A stretch of DNA of 42,478 bases from Alphaproteobacteria bacterium (GTDB taxonomy: Bacteria; Pseudomonadota; Alphaproteobacteria; UBA2966), in the NCBI GenBank assembly GCA_021296255.1, contig JAGWAU010000020.1, forward strand, positions 1 to 42,478, written 5' to 3'. Below are positions 28,563 through 41,586 of this stretch, piece by piece. The stretch's first letter is position 1. The number at the start of each line of letters is the position of its first letter. A program made the position numbers and the translations under genes. The notes under the pieces are model-generated. The model did not search any database, had not been told where the DNA came from, and saw only the letters and a program-made list of their open reading frames with translations.

Positions 28563-30736
28563 ATGAGTACCGCCGAGACCGTTTACGAGCCTGTGCGCCC
28601 TCGCCTCGACTACGAGAAGACCGAGGGCGGCATCGCGTACCAACTGGTTTCCGATTACACGCCGGCAGGCGACCAGCCTCAGGCGATCGAGGAGATCTCG
28701 GCGAGTGTCGACGGGGGGGAACGCAATCAGGTCCTGCTTGGCGTCACCGGGTCCGGCAAGACGTTCACCATGGCGAACGTCATCCGCAATACTGGCCGCC
28801 CGGCACTGGTCCTGGCGCCCAACAAGACGCTCGCGGCCCAGCTTTATGGCGAGATGAAGGAGTTCTTCCCCAATAACTCGGTGGAGTATTTCGTCTCCTA
28901 CTACGATTACTATCAGCCCGAGGCCTACGTCCCCAGATCGGACACCTACATCGAGAAAGATGCCTCGATCAACGAGCAGATCGACCGTATGCTATGGAGC
29001 GCGACGACGTCATCATCGTGGCCAGCGTCTCCTGCATTTACGGTATCGGCGACATCGAGACCTATCAGGAGATGACGGTCAACCTGAAGGCCGGAGACTC
29101 GATCGACCGCAACAAGCTGTTACGGCAGTTGGTCGAACTCCAATACCGTCGGAACGACACCAACTTCGTGCGCGGGACGTTCCGCGTTCGAGGCGACTCG
29201 ATCGAGATGTTCCCGGTCCATCTCGAGGACCGGGCGTGGCGGATTTCGCTGTTCGGCGATGAGGTCGAGAGCATCACGGAGTTCGACCCGCTCACGGGCG
29301 AGAGGACGGACACGCTCTCCCAGATCAAACTCTACGCAAATTCGCACTACGTGACGCCGAAGCCCACGCTCAAACAGGCGGTACAGGAGATTCGCAAGGA
29401 GCTGAAAATTCGCCTCGACGAGTTTCGATGCTCGGAAAAGCTGCTCGAAGCGGAACGTCTGGAACAGCGTACCGTGTTCGATCTCGAGATGATCGAGGCG
29501 ACGGGCTCCTGCGCCGGGATCGAGAACTACTCCCGCTACCTGACCGGCCGCCTGCCCGGCCAGCCCCCGCCGACTCTTTTCGAATACCTCCCCGACAACG
29601 CGTTGGTCGTCGTGGACGAGAGTCATGTCACGGTACCGCAACTCGGTGGGATGTTCCGTGGTGACTTCCGCCGCAAGTCGACGCTGGCGGAGTACGGGTT
29701 CCGCTTGCCGAGTTGCGTTGATAACCGTCCCCTCAAGTTCGAGGAGTGGGATGCCATGCGCCCCCAGACAATTTATGTCTCCGCGACACCGGGGTCCTGG
29801 GAACTGGAACAGACCGGCGGTGTCTTCGTCGAGCAGGTGATCCGGCCGACTGGCCTCATGGATCCGCGATGCCTCCTGCGTCCCGTCGACAGCCAAGTGG
29901 ACGACTTGATGGCCGAATGCCGCGATGCGGCCGCCAACGGCCAGCGCGTTCTGGTGACAACGTTGACCAAACGGATGGCCGAGGACCTCACCGAATACCT
30001 GCACGAAGCCGGCATTCGCGTCCGTTATCTGCATTCGGATATCGATACCATCGAGCGTATCGAGATCATCCGCGACCTGCGTCTCGGTGCCTTCGACGTC
30101 CTCGTCGGCATCAACCTGTTGCGCGAGGGTCTCGACATCCCCGAATGCGCCCTTGTCGCCATTCTTGATGCCGACAAGGAAGGGTTCTTGCGCTCACGGA
30201 CCTCCCTCATCCAGACCATTGGTCGGGCTGCGAGGAATGTGGACGGCCGCGTGATCCTCTACGCGGATGACATGACGGAGAGTCTGAAGGGGGCCATTGA
30301 CGAAACGGATCGCCGACGCGAGAAACAGAGACAGTTCAACGAGGCCAACGGCATCACCGCCGAGTCTGTCAAGAAAAACATCGGTGACATCCTCGAGGGC
30401 GTGTACGAGGGCGACTACGTCACCGTTTCCACCGGCGATGAGGAAACCCGGCATCTCATCGGCCACAATCTCGATGCCCATCTCGAGGACCTGGATAAGC
30501 GAATGCTGGAGGCGGCCGCGGAGCTGGAATTCGAGGAAGCCGCCCGCCTGCGCGACGAGATTCGCCGTCTTGAGGATGCCGATCTCGGGATTGGCGCACC
30601 GCGTCACCGTCGCGCCAAGGGCCGGCGCGAAGAAAAGAGCGACTCCCGATCCCACAGACAGGGACCGCGCTCGACCGCAGGCCAACCGGGAACCCGACAG
30701 TACCGGGGCAAAAGCAAACGCGCGATGAGGCTGTAG
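28563..30736 (+). pseudogene. uvrB: Excinuclease ABC subunit B (uvrB), interrupted by a frameshift
   Basis: UvrB verifies DNA damage and hands it to UvrC in nucleotide excision repair. The first 143 residues are intact: Walker A GVTGSGKT at 60-67 and the DNA-gripping hairpin [10 protein letters not shown] at 113-122. After EQIDRM the frame is lost, and the protein resumes one frame over with [19 protein letters not shown]. Compared with the family (EQIDRMRHSATRSLLERDD), eight codons are missing but two of their bases remain, so about 22 bases are absent at 28992/28993. The rest is well conserved: helicase motifs ([42 protein letters not shown]) and the C-terminal UVR motif [17 protein letters not shown]. 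The ATG at 28994 cannot rescue it because Walker A would be lost. A recent lesion or an assembly error are both possible. Confidence 0.9.
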
Positions 30737-34768: not shown

Positions 34769-35562
34769 GCGATGCAGTGTCTCCTTCGGCCGCACGGCCC
34801 ATCGAGGCGGGTGTCGCGCTCGTCACGGGCGGCGGGCAACGAATTGGACGGGCGATTTCTCAGGCGTTGGCGGAGGACGGATGGGCAGTCGCCGTTCATC
34901 ACCTGCGGTCGGCAAGCCAGTCCGAAGAAGTCGTGGCCGAGATCGCGAAGGGTGGCGGTCGTGCCATCGCGATCGCCGCCGATTTGACAGATGCAACCGC
35001 TGCCACGGACCTGATCCCGCGCGTCGCCGCGAAACTGGGGCCGGTGACCTGCCTCGTCAACAACGCGTCTGTGTTTGAGCCCGACGACGTCCTGTCGGCG
35101 ACTCAAGAGTCCTGGCGGCGGCACATCGATGTCAATTTGCGGGCGCCGTTCTTCTTGTCTCAATCCTTCGCCAAAGAGATGGTGGCAGGCGCGTTCGGCT
35201 GCATCATCAACATCATTGACGAACGTGTATGGAATCTGACACCCCATTTTGCATCTTACACGATGAGCAAGAGCGGTTTGTGGACGTTGACCCAAACGTG
35301 CGCGTTGGCGCTCGCACCTGGGATCAGGGTGAATGGCATTGGGCCGGGACCGACGCTCCCGAGCCCCCGGCAGAGTCGTGAGCACTTCGAAACACAGGCC
35401 GCCTTGACACCGCTTGGGCGTGGCACCACACCCGGGGAGATCGTGTCCGCAGTTCGATTCATCCTCTCGTCGCCCGCGATGACCGGACAAATGATTGCGC
35501 TGGACGGCGGCCGGCACCTCAAATGGCGCCGGCACCCGGATGACGCGGACCTCGAGGAATGA
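34765..35562 (+). CDS. Short-chain dehydrogenase, FolM/pteridine reductase-like
   Basis: This 265-residue NAD(P)H-dependent enzyme has the cofactor motif TGGGQRIG (21-28) and NNAS (99-102). The catalytic set is D152, Y165 and K169 (IIDER ... SYTMSK). The place of the usual SDR serine is taken by aspartate 13 residues before the tyrosine, which is the arrangement of PTR1 and FolM pteridine reductases. Together with the RIG in the cofactor motif and the folB gene that follows, this suggests a dihydromonapterin or dihydrofolate reductase activity. It begins inside the stop of the exchanger gene (ATGA). The specific substrate is inference. Confidence 0.85.
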   Translation: MSDAVSPSAARPIEAGVALVTGGGQRIGRAISQALAEDGWAVAVHHLRSASQSEEVVAEIAKGGGRAIAIAADLTDATAATDLIPRVAAKLGPVTCLVNNASVFEPDDVLSATQESWRRHIDVNLRAPFFLSQSFAKEMVAGAFGCIINIIDERVWNLTPHFASYTMSKSGLWTLTQTCALALAPGIRVNGIGPGPTLPSPRQSREHFETQAALTPLGRGTTPGEIVSAVRFILSSPAMTGQMIALDGGRHLKWRRHPDDADLEE

Positions 35563-35608
35563 CAATGTTGTGGCTGGTCGTGGCGCAAGGCGACGGGCGG
35601 GCGTGGAC

Positions 35609-36016
35609 ATGTCACCGGACGGGGAAAACTTGAGCCGAGAACGGGAACGGCGCGAAGCGCAGCGGATCATCATCCGCAATCTGATACTGCCTGCCCGTGT
35701 CGGCGTGTACCGTCATGAGAAATCCGGTCCGCAGCAGGTTCGCATCAATCTCGAACTGATCGTCGAGGATCCTCGTCAATCCCTGAATGACGAGATCGAT
35801 GACGTCGTCAGTTACGAGACGGTGATATTGAGCGTGAAGGAAGTATTGGCGGAAGGTCACACGAACTTGGTCGAGACATTAGCTGAAAAGATTGCGGAAA
35901 TATGTCTGTCTGATCTCCGCGTTGTGGGAGTTCGTGTGGGAATAGAAAAACTTCACGCCATCTCCGAAGCGGAAAGCGTTGGTGTTGAAATCGAGCGATT
36001 CCGATCTAACCATTGA
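35609..36016 (+). CDS. folB: Dihydroneopterin aldolase FolB
   Basis: This protein of about 135 residues has the tunnelling fold of FolB, which splits dihydroneopterin in folate synthesis. It shows IIIRNLILPARVGVYRHEK, QQVRINLELIV, VSYETVILSVKEVL, the ETLAEKIAEICL helix and VGIEKLHAISEAESVGVEIE with the catalytic lysine. The N-terminal 16 residues are extra and charged. The ATG at 35609 has no clear ribosome binding site, and a GTG two codons before it or a TTG seven codons after it are alternatives. It starts 46 bases after the SDR gene and is the last gene of that run. Confidence 0.9.
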   Translation: MSPDGENLSRERERREAQRIIIRNLILPARVGVYRHEKSGPQQVRINLELIVEDPRQSLNDEIDDVVSYETVILSVKEVLAEGHTNLVETLAEKIAEICLSDLRVVGVRVGIEKLHAISEAESVGVEIERFRSNH

Positions 36017-36380
36017 TAACTCGACAAATTCTTTGGGTCATGTATTGCCGTTTGTCGGAAAGTTGTGCACAGGCGAATATTTACTGAATGCTGACGGCCG
36101 CATATTGCATGAGGTTTCTGCTTCGGGATCTCAGAAAGACCTTGACTTTTGAATTCTCACTTAAAATCAATTAGTTATTATATATTGCCCAAAAAACAGG
36201 CAACTAGATGAACGCAAAGGATTGCCGCGCTTGTACCCCCTGACGACATCATTTCCCACAAACTTATCCACACGAATCGTGGATATTATGACATCCGTGT
36301 GAAGCTGCCGCCGTCGACCATTCACCCAAACTTTGGGAGTCGTGCGGCTTCGTCGATGATATGCTCGCCGGCAACAGATC
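36017..36380. promoter_or_regulatory. AT-rich intergenic segment with DnaA-box-like sites
   Basis: This 364-base gap between folB and uvrC is clearly richer in A and T than its surroundings, most of all around 36155-36200 (runs such as TTAGTTATTATATATT). It contains a perfect DnaA box TTATCCACA (36264-36272), which with GTGGATA forms an inverted pair TATCCAC-7-GTGGATA (36265-36285), plus near matches TTGTGCACA (36063-36071) and TTTCCCACA (36252-36260). It may be a DnaA-controlled promoter of uvrC or a replication-origin-like element. No gene is seen, and no clear sigma-70 promoter with normal spacing was found. Confidence 0.5.
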
Positions 36381-38315
36381 ATGACGGCCGCCCAACCTGA
36401 AATTCAGCGCTCGCGGCACCGCGTCGTCTCCGGCACCGAGAGCGCGGGCACTGAGCCCGCCGCCCCTTCGGTTACGCGTGGCCGTGATGTAATCCGCACC
36501 CATTTGAAGCTGCTGCCCAACAGTCCCGGCGTCTATAGGATGGTCGATGCGAAGGGACAGGTTCTGTATGTCGGCAAGGCAAAGAGCCTGAAGAAGCGGG
36601 TCGCCTCCTATGCGAATTCGACGGGCTTGACGACTCGCATACTGGGCATGGTCGCGTCGACCGTGGACATGGAGTTCATCACGACACATACCGAGGTCGA
36701 GGCGCTGCTTCTCGAGTCGAACCTCATCAAAGAACTCAAACCCCGCTACAACATATTGCTGAGGGACGATAAATCCTTTCCTTACATTCTAATCACGGGA
36801 GACCACGACTGGGCTCAGATCACGAAACACCGCGGCGCGCGAAACAGGCCAGGTGAATATTTCGGGCCTTTCGCATCGGCAGGTGCCGTCAATGAAACGA
36901 TCAACGCGCTCCAGCGGGCCTTTCCGCTTCGTTCTTGTTCCGACAGCGTGTTCGCAAGCCGCACGCGACCCTGCCTCCAATATCAGATCCGCCGCTGCAC
37001 GGCGCCCTGTGTCGACCGCATCGGTCGGGAAGACTATGACCGGATCGTGCACGAGGCGCGGGACTTTCTTTCGGGCCGGAGTCGGCGAACCCAGGAGGAA
37101 CTCTCCGAACGGATGCAGGAAGCCAGCGCAAGTCTGGAATTCGAGACCGCGGCAGTCTATCGGGATCGCATTCGGGCCCTCACCCAGATTCAGGCGCGCC
37201 AAGGGATCAATATTCCAACGCTGGGAGAGGCCGACGTTGTCGGGGTTTATCGGGATGCGGGCCAAACCTGTATTCAAGTGTTTTTTTTCCGCTCCGGGCA
37301 GAACTACGGCAACCGAGCCTACTTTCCGGCACATGCCAAGAGCGACACCATTGAAGAGGTCCTGTCCGCCTTCATCGGCCAGTTCTACGCCGACAAACCG
37401 CCACCCCGACTGGTGCTGACCAGTCATGGCATAGAAGGCAGGGACCTCGTCGAGCAGGCACTCGGTGTCCGCGCAGGCAGGCGGGTGGACATCCGCGCGC
37501 CGCGTCGGGGCGCCAAGCGCCAGTTGGTCGAACATGCCGTCGACAATGGTCGAGAAGCGCTCGCCCGCCGCCTCGCGGAGAGCGCCTCACAGCGGCGGTT
37601 GCTGGAGGGTGTGGCCAGAACGTTTGGCCTTGAGGCGTCCCCCGAGCGTATCGAAGTCTACGACAACAGCCATATTCGCGGCAGTGAAGCTCTGGGTGCC
37701 ATGATCGTCGCGGGGGCCGAGGGACTCCTCAAGAACCAGTACCGGAAATTCAACATCAAGCGGTCCGATCTTACTCCTGGGGATGACTACGGCATGATGA
37801 CCGAGGTCTTGACTCGTCGTTTCTCACGCCTGCTCAGGGAAGACGAAGACCGTGAGGGTGGGCAGTGGCCAGACCTGGTCCTGATTGACGGCGGTGCCGG
37901 CCACCTGAGGACGGCCGGGCAGGTGTTTGCCGATCTCGGCGTTACGGATGTGGCGCTCGCCGCCATCGCGAAGGGTCCGAACCGCAATGCCGGTCGCGAA
38001 ACGTTTCATGTTCAGGGGCAGCCGGCGTTCTCGCTGGAGACCAACGATTCCGTACTGTACTTCCTTCAGCGTCTGCGCGATGAGGCGCATCGATATGCCA
38101 TTGGCGGCCATCGCGCCAAGCGGTCGCATAAACTGGGCCGCTCGGCGCTGGACGAGATTCCCGGCATCGGGGCCAAGCGAAAGCGCGCCCTGCTGCATCA
38201 TTTCGGCTCCGTACGGTCCGTGGAGCGCGCTGGCCTAGCCGATCTTGAAGCGGTCGAAGGAGTCTCGCAGCGCGTGGCCAAATCGATCTATGACCATTTT
38301 CATTCCGGCGACTAG
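36381..38315 (+). CDS. uvrC: Excinuclease ABC subunit C UvrC
   Basis: This 644-residue nuclease makes the two cuts around a lesion marked by UvrB. The GIY-YIG domain for the 3' cut has [20 protein letters not shown] (48-67). A zinc-ligand-like cysteine group follows ([15 protein letters not shown]). The UVR motif that binds UvrB is [20 protein letters not shown]. The RNase H-like domain for the 5' cut has [19 protein letters not shown] and [12 protein letters not shown]. The helix-hairpin-helix end has [21 protein letters not shown]. The N-terminal 40 residues are a loose extension. All parts are intact, in contrast to uvrB. It leads the uvrC-pgsA-mob/moa run. Confidence 0.97.
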
Positions 38316-39078: not shown

Positions 39079-39609
39079 ATGAAGCTGTTGGGCATCGCCG
39101 GATGGAGCGGCAGCGGCAAAACGACACTCATCGCGGACCTGCTGCCCCGACTCAGGGAAAGTGGAATTCGCGTGTCGACCATCAAACACGCGCACCACGG
39201 ATTCGACGTGGACCAGCCAGGGAAGGACTCGTACGAGCATCGAAAAGCGGGCGCCTCCGAGGTCCTGGTGTCTTCGAGTCGGCGATGGGTGCTCATGCAC
39301 GAAAATCGCGGTGAGCCGGAACCGTCGCTGACGGATCTCGTTTCCCGGCTGTCGGCCGTGGATCTGGTTCTGGTCGAGGGATTCAAGCGGGAGGCAATCG
39401 ACAAGCTGGAGGTCTATCGCCAGGGGTTGGGGAAGCCCATGCTCCAGCACGAGGACCCCCGTATCGTGGCCGTGGCCAGTGACACATCACTTTCGGATGT
39501 ACCCGTTCCGGTACTCAGCCTCGCTGCGGTCGACGAAATTGCGGCCTTCATCGCCGCGCATTGCGGTTTCGCCGGGCAAACCCGGTACGCGGCGGCCCGG
39601 GGGCTATAG
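39079..39609 (+). CDS. mobB: Molybdopterin-guanine dinucleotide biosynthesis protein MobB
   Basis: This 176-residue P-loop GTPase helps MobA attach GMP to the molybdenum cofactor. It begins LLGIAGWSGSGKTTLIADLL (Walker A), then has STIKHAHHGFDVDQPGKDS, a conserved MobB stretch, and VDLVLVEGFKREAIDKLEVY with the Walker B-like strand. AAGGA seven bases before the ATG supports this start over the GTG just before it. It stops two bases before moeA. A bis-MGD form is needed by many oxidoreductases, whereas MsrP in this window uses the plain cofactor, so other molybdoenzymes are expected elsewhere. Confidence 0.95.
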   Translation: MKLLGIAGWSGSGKTTLIADLLPRLRESGIRVSTIKHAHHGFDVDQPGKDSYEHRKAGASEVLVSSSRRWVLMHENRGEPEPSLTDLVSRLSAVDLVLVEGFKREAIDKLEVYRQGLGKPMLQHEDPRIVAVASDTSLSDVPVPVLSLAAVDEIAAFIAAHCGFAGQTRYAAARGL

Positions 39610-39611
39610 CC

Positions 39612-40865
39612 GTGCAGCTTTCCGACGATTGCTTCGCGACCGGAGATCGTCTGATGACGATGGCGGAAGCGCTCGTCCTTCTGGCGGAACGTATCGCACC
39701 GGTCGGCGCCACCGAACCCCTTCCCCTGCGCGGCGCCGTCAAGCGGATTCTCGCCGAAGATGTCGTGTCAGAGCGCGATGTTCCCCCGCAGGGAAATTCA
39801 GCGGTCGATGGCTATGCGTTCGCGTTCGATGACCTGACACCTGGCCATGAGACCCGTCTTCGAATCGCTGGCCGTGCCACGGCGGGACACCCGACGTCAG
39901 GCGAACCGGGCGGACGCGAGGCGGTGCGGATCTTCACAGGGGCTTTGATGCCGGAGAGATGCGATACCGTCGCCATGCAGGAAGACTGCATAGCTGACGC
40001 TGACGAGGTCGTCATTCCTCCCGGACTATCACGGGGCGCCAATCGTCGTCGTGCCGGTGAAGACGTTCGGACGGGGGATGTCGTCCTCACCGAGGGTCAC
40101 CTGCTGCGACCTCAGGATCTTGGTATCGCGGCGTCCGTCGGCTGTACCGAAATCTCCGTGTACCGGCCGGTTCGTGTGGCTGTTTTTTCCACGGGCGATG
40201 AAGTTTGCGAACCGGGCGTCCCTCTGGCCCATGGGGCCATCTATGATTCGAATCGCTATGTCTTGATGTCGTTGCTTGATGGTCTTCCCGTCGACGTCTC
40301 TGATCTGGGGATACTGGCCGACGATCAGCAGGCGGTGGCATCGGCATTGCGGGATGCCGCACGTGCGCACGACTTGCTGATCACGTCGGGCGGTGTGTCG
40401 GTGGGGGAAGAAGATCACGTCAAGAACGCTGTCCGGAAAAACGGCACCCTTCACTTCTGGCGCCTCGCCATAAAGCCGGGCCGGCCGTTGGCATTGGGGC
40501 AGGTCAATGGGGTGCCGTTCGTCGGGTTGCCCGGCAATCCGGTGGCCGCGATGGTGACGTTTCTTCGCTTTGCGCGGCCGCTGCTGCTGCGCTTGGCGGG
40601 GGGCACCCGCGTCGACCCGCACCTTTACCGCGTCCGCGCGAACTTCTCCCATCGCAAGAAGCCCAACCGCCGTGAGTGGGTGCGGGCATGTCTCAAATCG
40701 GGCCCTGACGGGACTTTGGAAGCCGAAAAGTTCGCTCGCGAAGGGGCTGGGATTTTGCGCTCTCTGGTCGAGTCGGACGGTCTGGTCGAACTGCCCGAGG
40801 AGATGACAGAGGTGATACCGGGCACTATGGTGGAATTTCTCCCCTTTGCCGAGGTGGCGTCTTGA
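39612..40865 (+). CDS. moeA: Molybdopterin molybdenumtransferase MoeA
   Basis: This 417-residue enzyme inserts molybdate into adenylated molybdopterin. Family features are PPQGNSAVDGYAFAF, RIFTGALMPERCDTV, a VAVFSTGDEVCEPG strand beginning the MoCF domain, DLLITSGGVSVGEEDHVK, and VGLPGNPVAAMVTF. Domain IV ends the protein. The GTG start gives VQLSDDCFATGDRLMTMAEAL, which matches alphaproteobacterial MoeA N-termini (LSDDCF..G..LM). A start at the internal ATG would lose it. The stop overlaps the TTG of moaD. Confidence 0.95.
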   Translation: MQLSDDCFATGDRLMTMAEALVLLAERIAPVGATEPLPLRGAVKRILAEDVVSERDVPPQGNSAVDGYAFAFDDLTPGHETRLRIAGRATAGHPTSGEPGGREAVRIFTGALMPERCDTVAMQEDCIADADEVVIPPGLSRGANRRRAGEDVRTGDVVLTEGHLLRPQDLGIAASVGCTEISVYRPVRVAVFSTGDEVCEPGVPLAHGAIYDSNRYVLMSLLDGLPVDVSDLGILADDQQAVASALRDAARAHDLLITSGGVSVGEEDHVKNAVRKNGTLHFWRLAIKPGRPLALGQVNGVPFVGLPGNPVAAMVTFLRFARPLLLRLAGGTRVDPHLYRVRANFSHRKKPNRREWVRACLKSGPDGTLEAEKFAREGAGILRSLVESDGLVELPEEMTEVIPGTMVEFLPFAEVAS

Positions 40866-41113
40866 AGGTTCTCTATTTCGCTTGGGTCCGTTCGCAAATC
40901 GGTCTCTCGGAGGAGACCGTCGATCTTCCCGACGATGTTTCCACGGTCAGTGAACTGCTCGATTGGTTGCGGGGACGTGGTCCCCGGCACGCCGAAGCGC
41001 TGCACGACACCTCCGTCGTGCGGGTCGCCGTGAACGAGGAGTATGCGTCGCTCGACGCGCCAGTCGCGGCTGGAGACGAAGTGGCCTTGTTTCCACCGGT
41101 GACCGGCGGGTGA
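40862..41113 (+). CDS. moaD: Molybdopterin synthase small subunit MoaD
   Basis: This 83-residue ubiquitin-like sulfur carrier donates sulfur from its C-terminal thiocarboxylate to precursor Z. It begins KVLYFAWVRSQIGLSEETV and ends FPPVTGG, the double glycine required for activation by MoeB. The start is a TTG inside the TTGA overlap with the moeA stop. Its own stop overlaps the GTG of moaE, so subunit ratios are probably set by coupled translation. Confidence 0.95.
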   Translation: MKVLYFAWVRSQIGLSEETVDLPDDVSTVSELLDWLRGRGPRHAEALHDTSVVRVAVNEEYASLDAPVAAGDEVALFPPVTGG

Positions 41114-41586
41114 CGCCGAAATCGGGTCGCATGATTCGGGTTCAGAGAGAGGATTTTGACGTTGCCGCCGAGACCGCCTCGATCGTGGGGAGCGATCACG
41201 GTATCGGTGCCGTGGTGACCTTCATCGGCCTTGTTCGCGATATCAGCGGCGGCGAGTCGATTTCGAACATGACGCTCGAGCACTATCCAGGCATGACAGA
41301 AAAGATGCTGGAGCGAATCGAGTCCGAGGCGATGTCGCGATGGCCCCTTTCCGCGAGCCTGATCGTTCATAGGTACGGCCATCTCGAACCGGGAGACGGC
41401 ATTGTTCTGGTCATCACGGCATCCCCGCACCGCGAGGCGGCTTTTGAAGCGAGTGAGTTTCTCGTGGACTGGCTCAAGACCAAGGCGCCGTTCTGGAAGC
41501 GGGAAACGACACCCGCGGGTGCCAAGTGGGTCGCGGCCCGTGACAGCGACGACGCTGCGGCGGCTCGCTGGACCGGAGAGATCTAA
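41110..41586 (+). CDS. moaE: Molybdopterin synthase catalytic subunit MoaE
   Basis: This 158-residue subunit joins sulfur from MoaD to precursor Z, forming molybdopterin. Conserved parts are GAVVTFIGLVRD, MTLEHYPGMTEKMLERIE, VHRYGHLEPGDGIVLVIT and WLKTKAPFWKRE, where K123 and K130 keep the spacing of the two active-site lysines. The GTG overlapping the moaD stop was chosen because it keeps the coupling pattern of the operon. An ATG seven codons later (41131) gives a normal 151-residue protein and is also likely. Confidence 0.95.
   Translation: MTPKSGRMIRVQREDFDVAAETASIVGSDHGIGAVVTFIGLVRDISGGESISNMTLEHYPGMTEKMLERIESEAMSRWPLSASLIVHRYGHLEPGDGIVLVITASPHREAAFEASEFLVDWLKTKAPFWKRETTPAGAKWVAARDSDDAAAARWTGEI

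Follow-up and report, generated by a model that had tools for sequence, protein, structure and literature searches.

A putative DnaA-reactivating sequence with a head-to-head DnaA-box core between folB and uvrC in Alphaproteobacteria

The window analyzed here, a stretch of 42,478 nucleotides of DNA from an alphaproteobacterial draft genome, contains an intergenic gap at positions 36017-36380 between folB and uvrC, two ORFs on the same strand. DnaA boxes lie in this AT-rich gap, and an earlier note on the sequence had raised the question of whether they mark a chromosomal origin of replication or a site of another kind at which DnaA acts. The findings described below suggest that the gap probably holds a DARS (DnaA-reactivating sequence) with a layout resembling that of Escherichia coli DARS2, which would regenerate ATP-DnaA with the participation of IHF.

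Anatomy of the folB-uvrC gap

When the composition was calculated along the window, the GC content of the gap was found to be 0.44 and 0.47 (two intervals of 400 bases), compared to mostly 0.57-0.65 for the intervals between 30 and 42 kb. This bears out the AT-rich island described in the earlier note, whose account of the boxes also held: a perfect DnaA box, TTATCCACA, is found at 36264-36272, the opposed pair TATCCAC-7-GTGGATA is present in the gap, and there are two near-match boxes, TTGTGCACA at 36063 and TTTCCCACA at 36252. The parts of the element and the two neighbouring genes are listed in Table 1. In the wider surroundings, uvrB (28994-30736 of the window) is found 5.3 kb upstream of the element. 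The region downstream of uvrC, at 39561-41586, carries moeA, moaD and moaE-like ORFs, recognized by eye.

Table 1. Positions in the window of the DARS-like element, its parts and its neighbouring genes
Feature	Positions	Strand	Remarks
folB ORF (dihydroneopterin aldolase)	35495-36016	+	Upstream neighbour; Pfam FolB
Whole DARS-like element, 235 bp	36058-36292	+	113 bits with profile R1; the window belongs to the 57 training rows
Distal DnaA box TTGTGCACA	36063-36071	+	One mismatch to TTWTNCACA; gap of 180 bp to the core
IHF consensus site AATCAATTAGTTA	36165-36177	+	Sequence match to WATCAANNNNTTR with 0 mismatches; gap of 74 bp to the core
Inverted repeat TTGCC-N9-GGCAA	36185-36203		
Core box III, TTTCCCACA	36252-36260	+	
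Core box II, TTATCCACA	36264-36272	+	Perfect; 3 bp after box III
Core box I, ATATCCACG on the minus strand	36278-36286	-	Inverted; two mismatches; 5 bp after box II
uvrC	36381-38315	+	Downstream neighbour

The core of the element (36252-36286) is made of three boxes arranged as TTTCCCACA-3-TTATCCACA-5-(inverted)ATATCCACG, a geometry of 9-3-9-5-9, and its letters read TTTCCCACA-AAC-TTATCCACA-CGAAT-CGTGGATAT. Box II on the plus strand and box I on the minus strand, the latter with two mismatches, form a head-to-head pair. The inner 15-mer of the upstream palindrome (36187-36201) stands at a gap of 50 bp from the core and has one mismatch to the Fis consensus GNNYANNNNNTRNNC. The full series of spacings in the window is 180 bp for the distal box, 74 bp for the IHF site and 50 bp for the palindrome, followed by 3 and 5 bp within the core.

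The number of DnaA boxes by itself is within chance. The window contains one perfect copy of TTATCCACA and the 4.25-Mb genome contains six, compared to nine for the reversed control pattern. When up to one mismatch was allowed, two copies were found in the window compared to 3.6 expected, and the genome has 32 matches to TTWTNCACA compared to 50 for the controls. In contrast, the spacing and the conservation of the boxes are far beyond chance. A strict scan for the 9-3-9-5-9 core returned one site in the window and one site in samples totalling 2.0 Mb taken from five relatives; the latter is at the element of genome G001, the sole copy of the element inside those samples.

Conservation upstream of uvrC and copies elsewhere

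Conservation was assessed in the window together with 80 named uvrC loci; uvrC was also taken from relatives. The titles of the named loci include Magnetospirillum, Telmatospirillum, Parvibaculum, Dongia, Defluviicoccus and many MAGs. A TTGTGCACA-like box located 196-214 bp before a TTATCCACA-like box was found upstream of uvrC in 57 of the 81 loci, with a mode of 200-201 bp, compared to 1 of 3650 controls (1825 stretches of 700 bases from the same loci, both strands). Distance classes outside 181-218 bp contained at most six loci and mostly none. The 24 loci without the box pair were left out of the alignment of 57 rows (A2), in which the gap from the distal box to the core ranges from 175 to 193 bp and six columns of the distal box are invariant.

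The IHF consensus was present without mismatch in 30 of the 81 upstream regions compared to 25 of the 1825 control stretches. A plus-strand IHF site with up to one mismatch occurred at a gap of 71-76 bp in 43 of the 57 rows, 22 of them perfect; this count was made without tie-breaking toward 74 bp, and the tie-broken count gave the same 43 of 57. At other positions or on the opposite strand, the same rows hold 24 further IHF-like sites with up to one mismatch. Perfect matches to the Fis consensus were found at a gap of 50-52 bp in 35 of the 57 rows, and there were eight perfect sites elsewhere. Within the core, the gap between boxes II and I is 5 bp in 42 of the 57 rows (up to two mismatches), while any other gap from 0 to 15 bp was seen in at most one row. 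Boxes III and II are 3 bp apart in 48 of the 57 rows (next best, 6). Box I with up to two mismatches is absent from 15 of the 57 rows, and in 11 of those 15 it has at least five mismatches. The resulting variant, with box II in place and box I unrecognizable, occurs in L102, L103, L109, L111-L113, L119, L120, L123, L136 and L146; six of these 11 loci are titled Parvibaculum or Parvibaculaceae.

A stretch that is conserved and non-coding might also be a structured RNA or be conserved by chance. However, no Rfam match was obtained at E up to 1 in 11 loci, ten of them uvrC loci, and the RNA reading was rejected. The conserved columns cluster in protein-site motifs whose spacing is fixed, and the frequency of the box pair in loci and controls given above argues against chance. 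Either explanation is considered exceedingly improbable.

A sequence-only profile, R1, was derived from the 57 alphaproteobacterial copies, with no E. coli row. When searched against the named loci, R1 matched 65 of 80, in every case on the plus strand and upstream of uvrC; 56 of these loci had trained the profile. Nine of the 24 left-out loci were later matched in this way, and 15 of the 80 named loci had no match. Among genomes of Alphaproteobacteria, 266 of 385 were matched at E up to 0.001, some of them coinciding with the R1 training loci, and no match was obtained in 119 of the 385 under stricter filters. A draw across the phylum gave matches in 205 of 299 genomes, 158 of which lie outside Alphaproteobacteria (counted from the table) and have mostly lower scores. 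As judged from scores and lengths, several matches in other classes are full-length at 40-64 bits and many are short or weak. In 1.6 Mb sampled from four genomes, R1 gave three weak matches of at most 17.5 bits. The weaker matches in genomes may be something other than DARS.

The position of the element relative to uvrC was determined in 36 hand-picked genomes comprising close relatives, one-contig genomes, genomes with several matches and five without a match (G026, G018, G080, G068 and G077). R1 matched 31 of the 36, and in 27 of these 31 the best match was found no more than 0.5 kb upstream of the uvrC match; in G322 this best match was weak, at 21.7 bits. The best match was displaced from uvrC by 1.17 Mb in G209, by 17 kb in G048 and by 111 kb in G074, and in G288 an R1 match was present and uvrC was not found. 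Further copies above 40 bits occurred in seven genomes (G065, G337, G258, G074, G029, G359 and G188). Two to four R1 matches, some of them weak, were seen in G065, G188, G283 and G359, which belong to one family, and in G258 and G337. Contamination could account for part of the extra copies in G258, G337 and other drafts.

When 14 displaced or extra copies were submitted to a looser core scan, nine passed and five failed (those of G209, G048 and G029, and one each of G337 and G258). In ten alignments of such copies, the IHF site, the palindrome and the box II region were recognizable, and boxes I and III were decayed in some. As judged by eye from the ORFs, the displaced copies still have SDR, folB or uvrB-type genes nearby. 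Among the 53 named loci with 9 kb of upstream sequence, 28 have uvrB upstream on the same strand, 44 have an SDR gene and 35 have folB. DARS-like sequences at uvrB and mutH are described for Vibrio cholerae in passages of PMC6090056. That linkage of the element to uvrB might be ancestral is a speculation.

These positions bear on the proposal that the gap is a uvrC promoter region controlled by DnaA and IHF, which would couple excision repair to the cell cycle. In the 27 of 31 matched genomes of the hand-picked set and in the 65 of 80 named loci, training loci included, the element does precede uvrC on the same strand. However, the uvrC match begins at a distance from box II that ranges from about 30 to more than 600 bp, while the internal spacing of the element is nearly fixed, and full-length matches away from uvrC exist in G209, G048 and G074 and as extra copies. 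A role as a uvrC promoter region is therefore judged to be quite unlikely. The earlier note had offered control of uvrC by DnaA, or titration of DnaA, as alternatives to an origin. The note was right in seeing a DnaA-box site and in considering control by DnaA possible. The copies found apart from uvrC, however, make it improbable that control of uvrC is all that the element does.

Comparison with E. coli sites and position relative to the origin

The regions of DARS1, DARS2 and datA from E. coli K-12 were compared with the window. In the strict core scan of the E. coli stretches, DARS1 and DARS2 were found, and there was no site at oriC, datA, dnaA or uvrC. The DARS1 core, reversed, reads TAATACACA-TGG-TTATCCACA-GGAAT-AGTGGATAA and the DARS2 core, reversed, reads TTCTTCACA-ACT-CTATCCACA-GAAAA-GGTGAATAA; both have the same geometry as the core in the window. 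Passages of PMC5742627 state that the box spacing is equal in both DARS and that box I is opposed. According to passages of PMC10380432, PMC5742627, PMC8682772 and PMC4245941, the core of three boxes, with boxes II and I head-to-head, is essential, and DARS2 requires IHF and Fis sites placed at particular distances.

The likeness to DARS2 (rppH-mutH region, NC_000913.3 near 2.969 Mb) extends beyond the core. Two IHF-like sites, each with one mismatch, occur in DARS2, one at a gap of 74 bp, equal to that of the window, and the other at 58 bp. A perfect DnaA box is located at 176 bp, compared to the distal box at 180 bp in the window. These E. coli IHF-like sites and the 176-bp box were assigned from sequence and not from published coordinates. 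As with DARS2, the element is located away from the origin in the relatives tested. In contrast, the IHF motif and the distal box of DARS2 are oriented opposite to those of the window, the order is core, Fis-like site and IHF site in the window compared to core, IHF and Fis as inferred for DARS2, and the window element adjoins folB and uvrC whereas DARS2 lies in the rppH-mutH region.

DARS1, located between bioD and uvrB, also resembles the window in its letters: from box II to box I, TTATCCACAGGAATAGTGGATAA in DARS1 and TTATCCACACGAATCGTGGATAT in the window are alike at 20 of 23 positions. A uvrB gene is nearby in both cases, DARS1 lying before uvrB with moaA-E just beyond. The best IHF-like sites near DARS1, however, have two mismatches. 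The R1 match to DARS1 spans 153 bp and has a score of 28.3 bits (E 7.9e-9 in 14 kb), the highest in the 91 kb of E. coli stretches; R1 gave 10.9 bits to DARS2 (core only), 15.7 bits to a datA box and 16.7 bits to an oriC box. Low R1 scores are thus not diagnostic, because the datA and oriC boxes outscore DARS2. R1 was rejected as the sole discriminator, and the core geometry was used instead.

The 15.7 bits at the datA box also count in favour of a datA-type site, and datA resembles the window in having strong DnaA boxes and a perfect IHF consensus. Nevertheless, the E. coli datA stretch lacks the head-to-head three-box 9-3-9-5-9 core that is present in the window, and this core is the published hallmark of DARS according to the passages of PMC10380432 and PMC5742627. 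A datA-type site is accordingly regarded as unlikely.

Similarly, DnaA boxes, an IHF consensus site and an AT-rich stretch occur together at oriC, where DnaA boxes open the AT-rich DNA and replication starts, and near 31-33 kb the skew of the window passes gradually from slightly negative values to positive ones. When skew was measured in spaced 20-kb samples on either side of uvrC, however, it was found to be -0.077 and -0.082 in G023, -0.028 and -0.036 in G054, and -0.011 and -0.010 in G042, in which it is weak. In these three relatives, with genomes of one or two contigs, the site lies inside one replichore and off the skew minimum, and the skew switch is elsewhere. The site is not an origin in these genomes, because the skew sign is unchanged across it. 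The skew of G001 and G209 was too weak to place the site. The genome of the window is a draft of 136 contigs, and the skew evidence comes from the relatives. Moreover, the core is head-to-head, and a core of this kind is missing from the E. coli oriC stretch; passages of PMC10380432 contrast head-to-head boxes with the head-to-tail boxes of oriC. An additional AT-rich box cluster, syntenic with one in G002, is present in the genome of the window. An origin in the gap is therefore very unlikely, and the origin reading of the earlier note is not supported by the skew and the core. That note had named two observations as speaking against an origin, a skew switch elsewhere and absence of the boxes from relatives; the former was made in the three relatives, and the boxes proved to be conserved.

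The syntenic clusters are located at G000:C31:16223-16283 (L002 1489-1549) in the genome of the window and at G002:C54:6072-6132 (L213), and each adjoins a gamma-carbonic-anhydrase-like gene (by eye). They are a better candidate for oriC than the uvrC site. Three DnaA-type boxes 12 bp apart were also seen at G001:C2:15850-15882 on a 93-kb replicon, an arrangement like that of a plasmid origin.

Predicted function and occurrence of DARS in Alphaproteobacteria

Judged from sequence, the anatomy of the gap identifies a putative DARS-type element with high confidence, and by analogy with E. coli the element may reactivate DnaA. ADP-DnaA would bind boxes III, II and I, and the head-to-head pair of boxes II and I would force an AAA+ contact through which ADP is expelled. 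The apo-DnaA would then leave and take up ATP, providing more ATP-DnaA for initiation at an oriC located elsewhere. IHF, placed 74 bp off, would bend the DNA and allow the distal box and a palindrome binder to act on the core. We infer each of these events, namely the binding of DnaA, IHF and a palindrome factor, the release of ADP and the effect on initiation. The extra copies in seven genomes can be likened to the two DARS of E. coli.

Two features of the window count against a DARS: the element is placed between two same-strand genes, and box I has two mismatches. Transcription through DARS harms DARS in E. coli, according to passages of PMC5010248. The palindrome has one mismatch to the Fis consensus in the window, its position is unlike that inferred for E. 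coli DARS2, and a fis gene was not identified.

Passages of Kasho 2014 (PMC4245941) describe the DARS2 core, like Fis, as conserved specifically among gammaproteobacteria related to E. coli. A 2017 review names beta- and gammaproteobacteria for DARS in the passages seen (PMC5742627), and a 2023 review refers in its corresponding passages to similar sequences in many proteobacterial species, with the classes unnamed (PMC10380432). No description of DARS in Alphaproteobacteria was found in the literature searched, which excludes the founding paper (Fujimitsu 2009) and Sugiyama 2019; such an element is absent from the passages of PMC10380432, PMC8682772, PMC4245941, PMC7566177, PMC5760092, PMC6090056, PMC5010248, PMC10532879, PMC11853086, PMC13220808, PMC10218098, PMC5448010 and PMC5742627 that were covered.

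With about even chances, DARS is ancestral to Pseudomonadota and Alphaproteobacteria regenerate ATP-DnaA at a uvrC-linked DARS, with IHF and a non-Fis factor acting on TTGCC-N9-GGCAA. The alphaproteobacterial cell cycle is usually explained by DnaA synthesis and proteolysis; if this proposal is true, it also rests on the recycling of ADP-DnaA. E. coli is the organism from which reactivation of DnaA by DARS is known, and the alphaproteobacterial element is a possible extension of it: a DARS with the exact core geometry and the IHF spacing, if present in most of the sampled Alphaproteobacteria, would bring ADP-DnaA recycling into the class. The 235-bp element offers a precise target for deletion and for in vitro tests, and its conserved palindrome points to a further factor.

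Potential partners were searched for in the genome of the window. It has dnaA and a second DnaA-type ORF of 246 amino acids, which we take to be of Hda-like size, and three genes of the HU/IHF family. No fis gene was identified in the genome by an HTH_8 search, in which the matches were two NtrC-sized ORFs and one ORF of 108 amino acids (22.4 bits). The latter, with its weak match to a Fis-type helix at G000:C87:58578-58667, is a possible binder of the palindrome.
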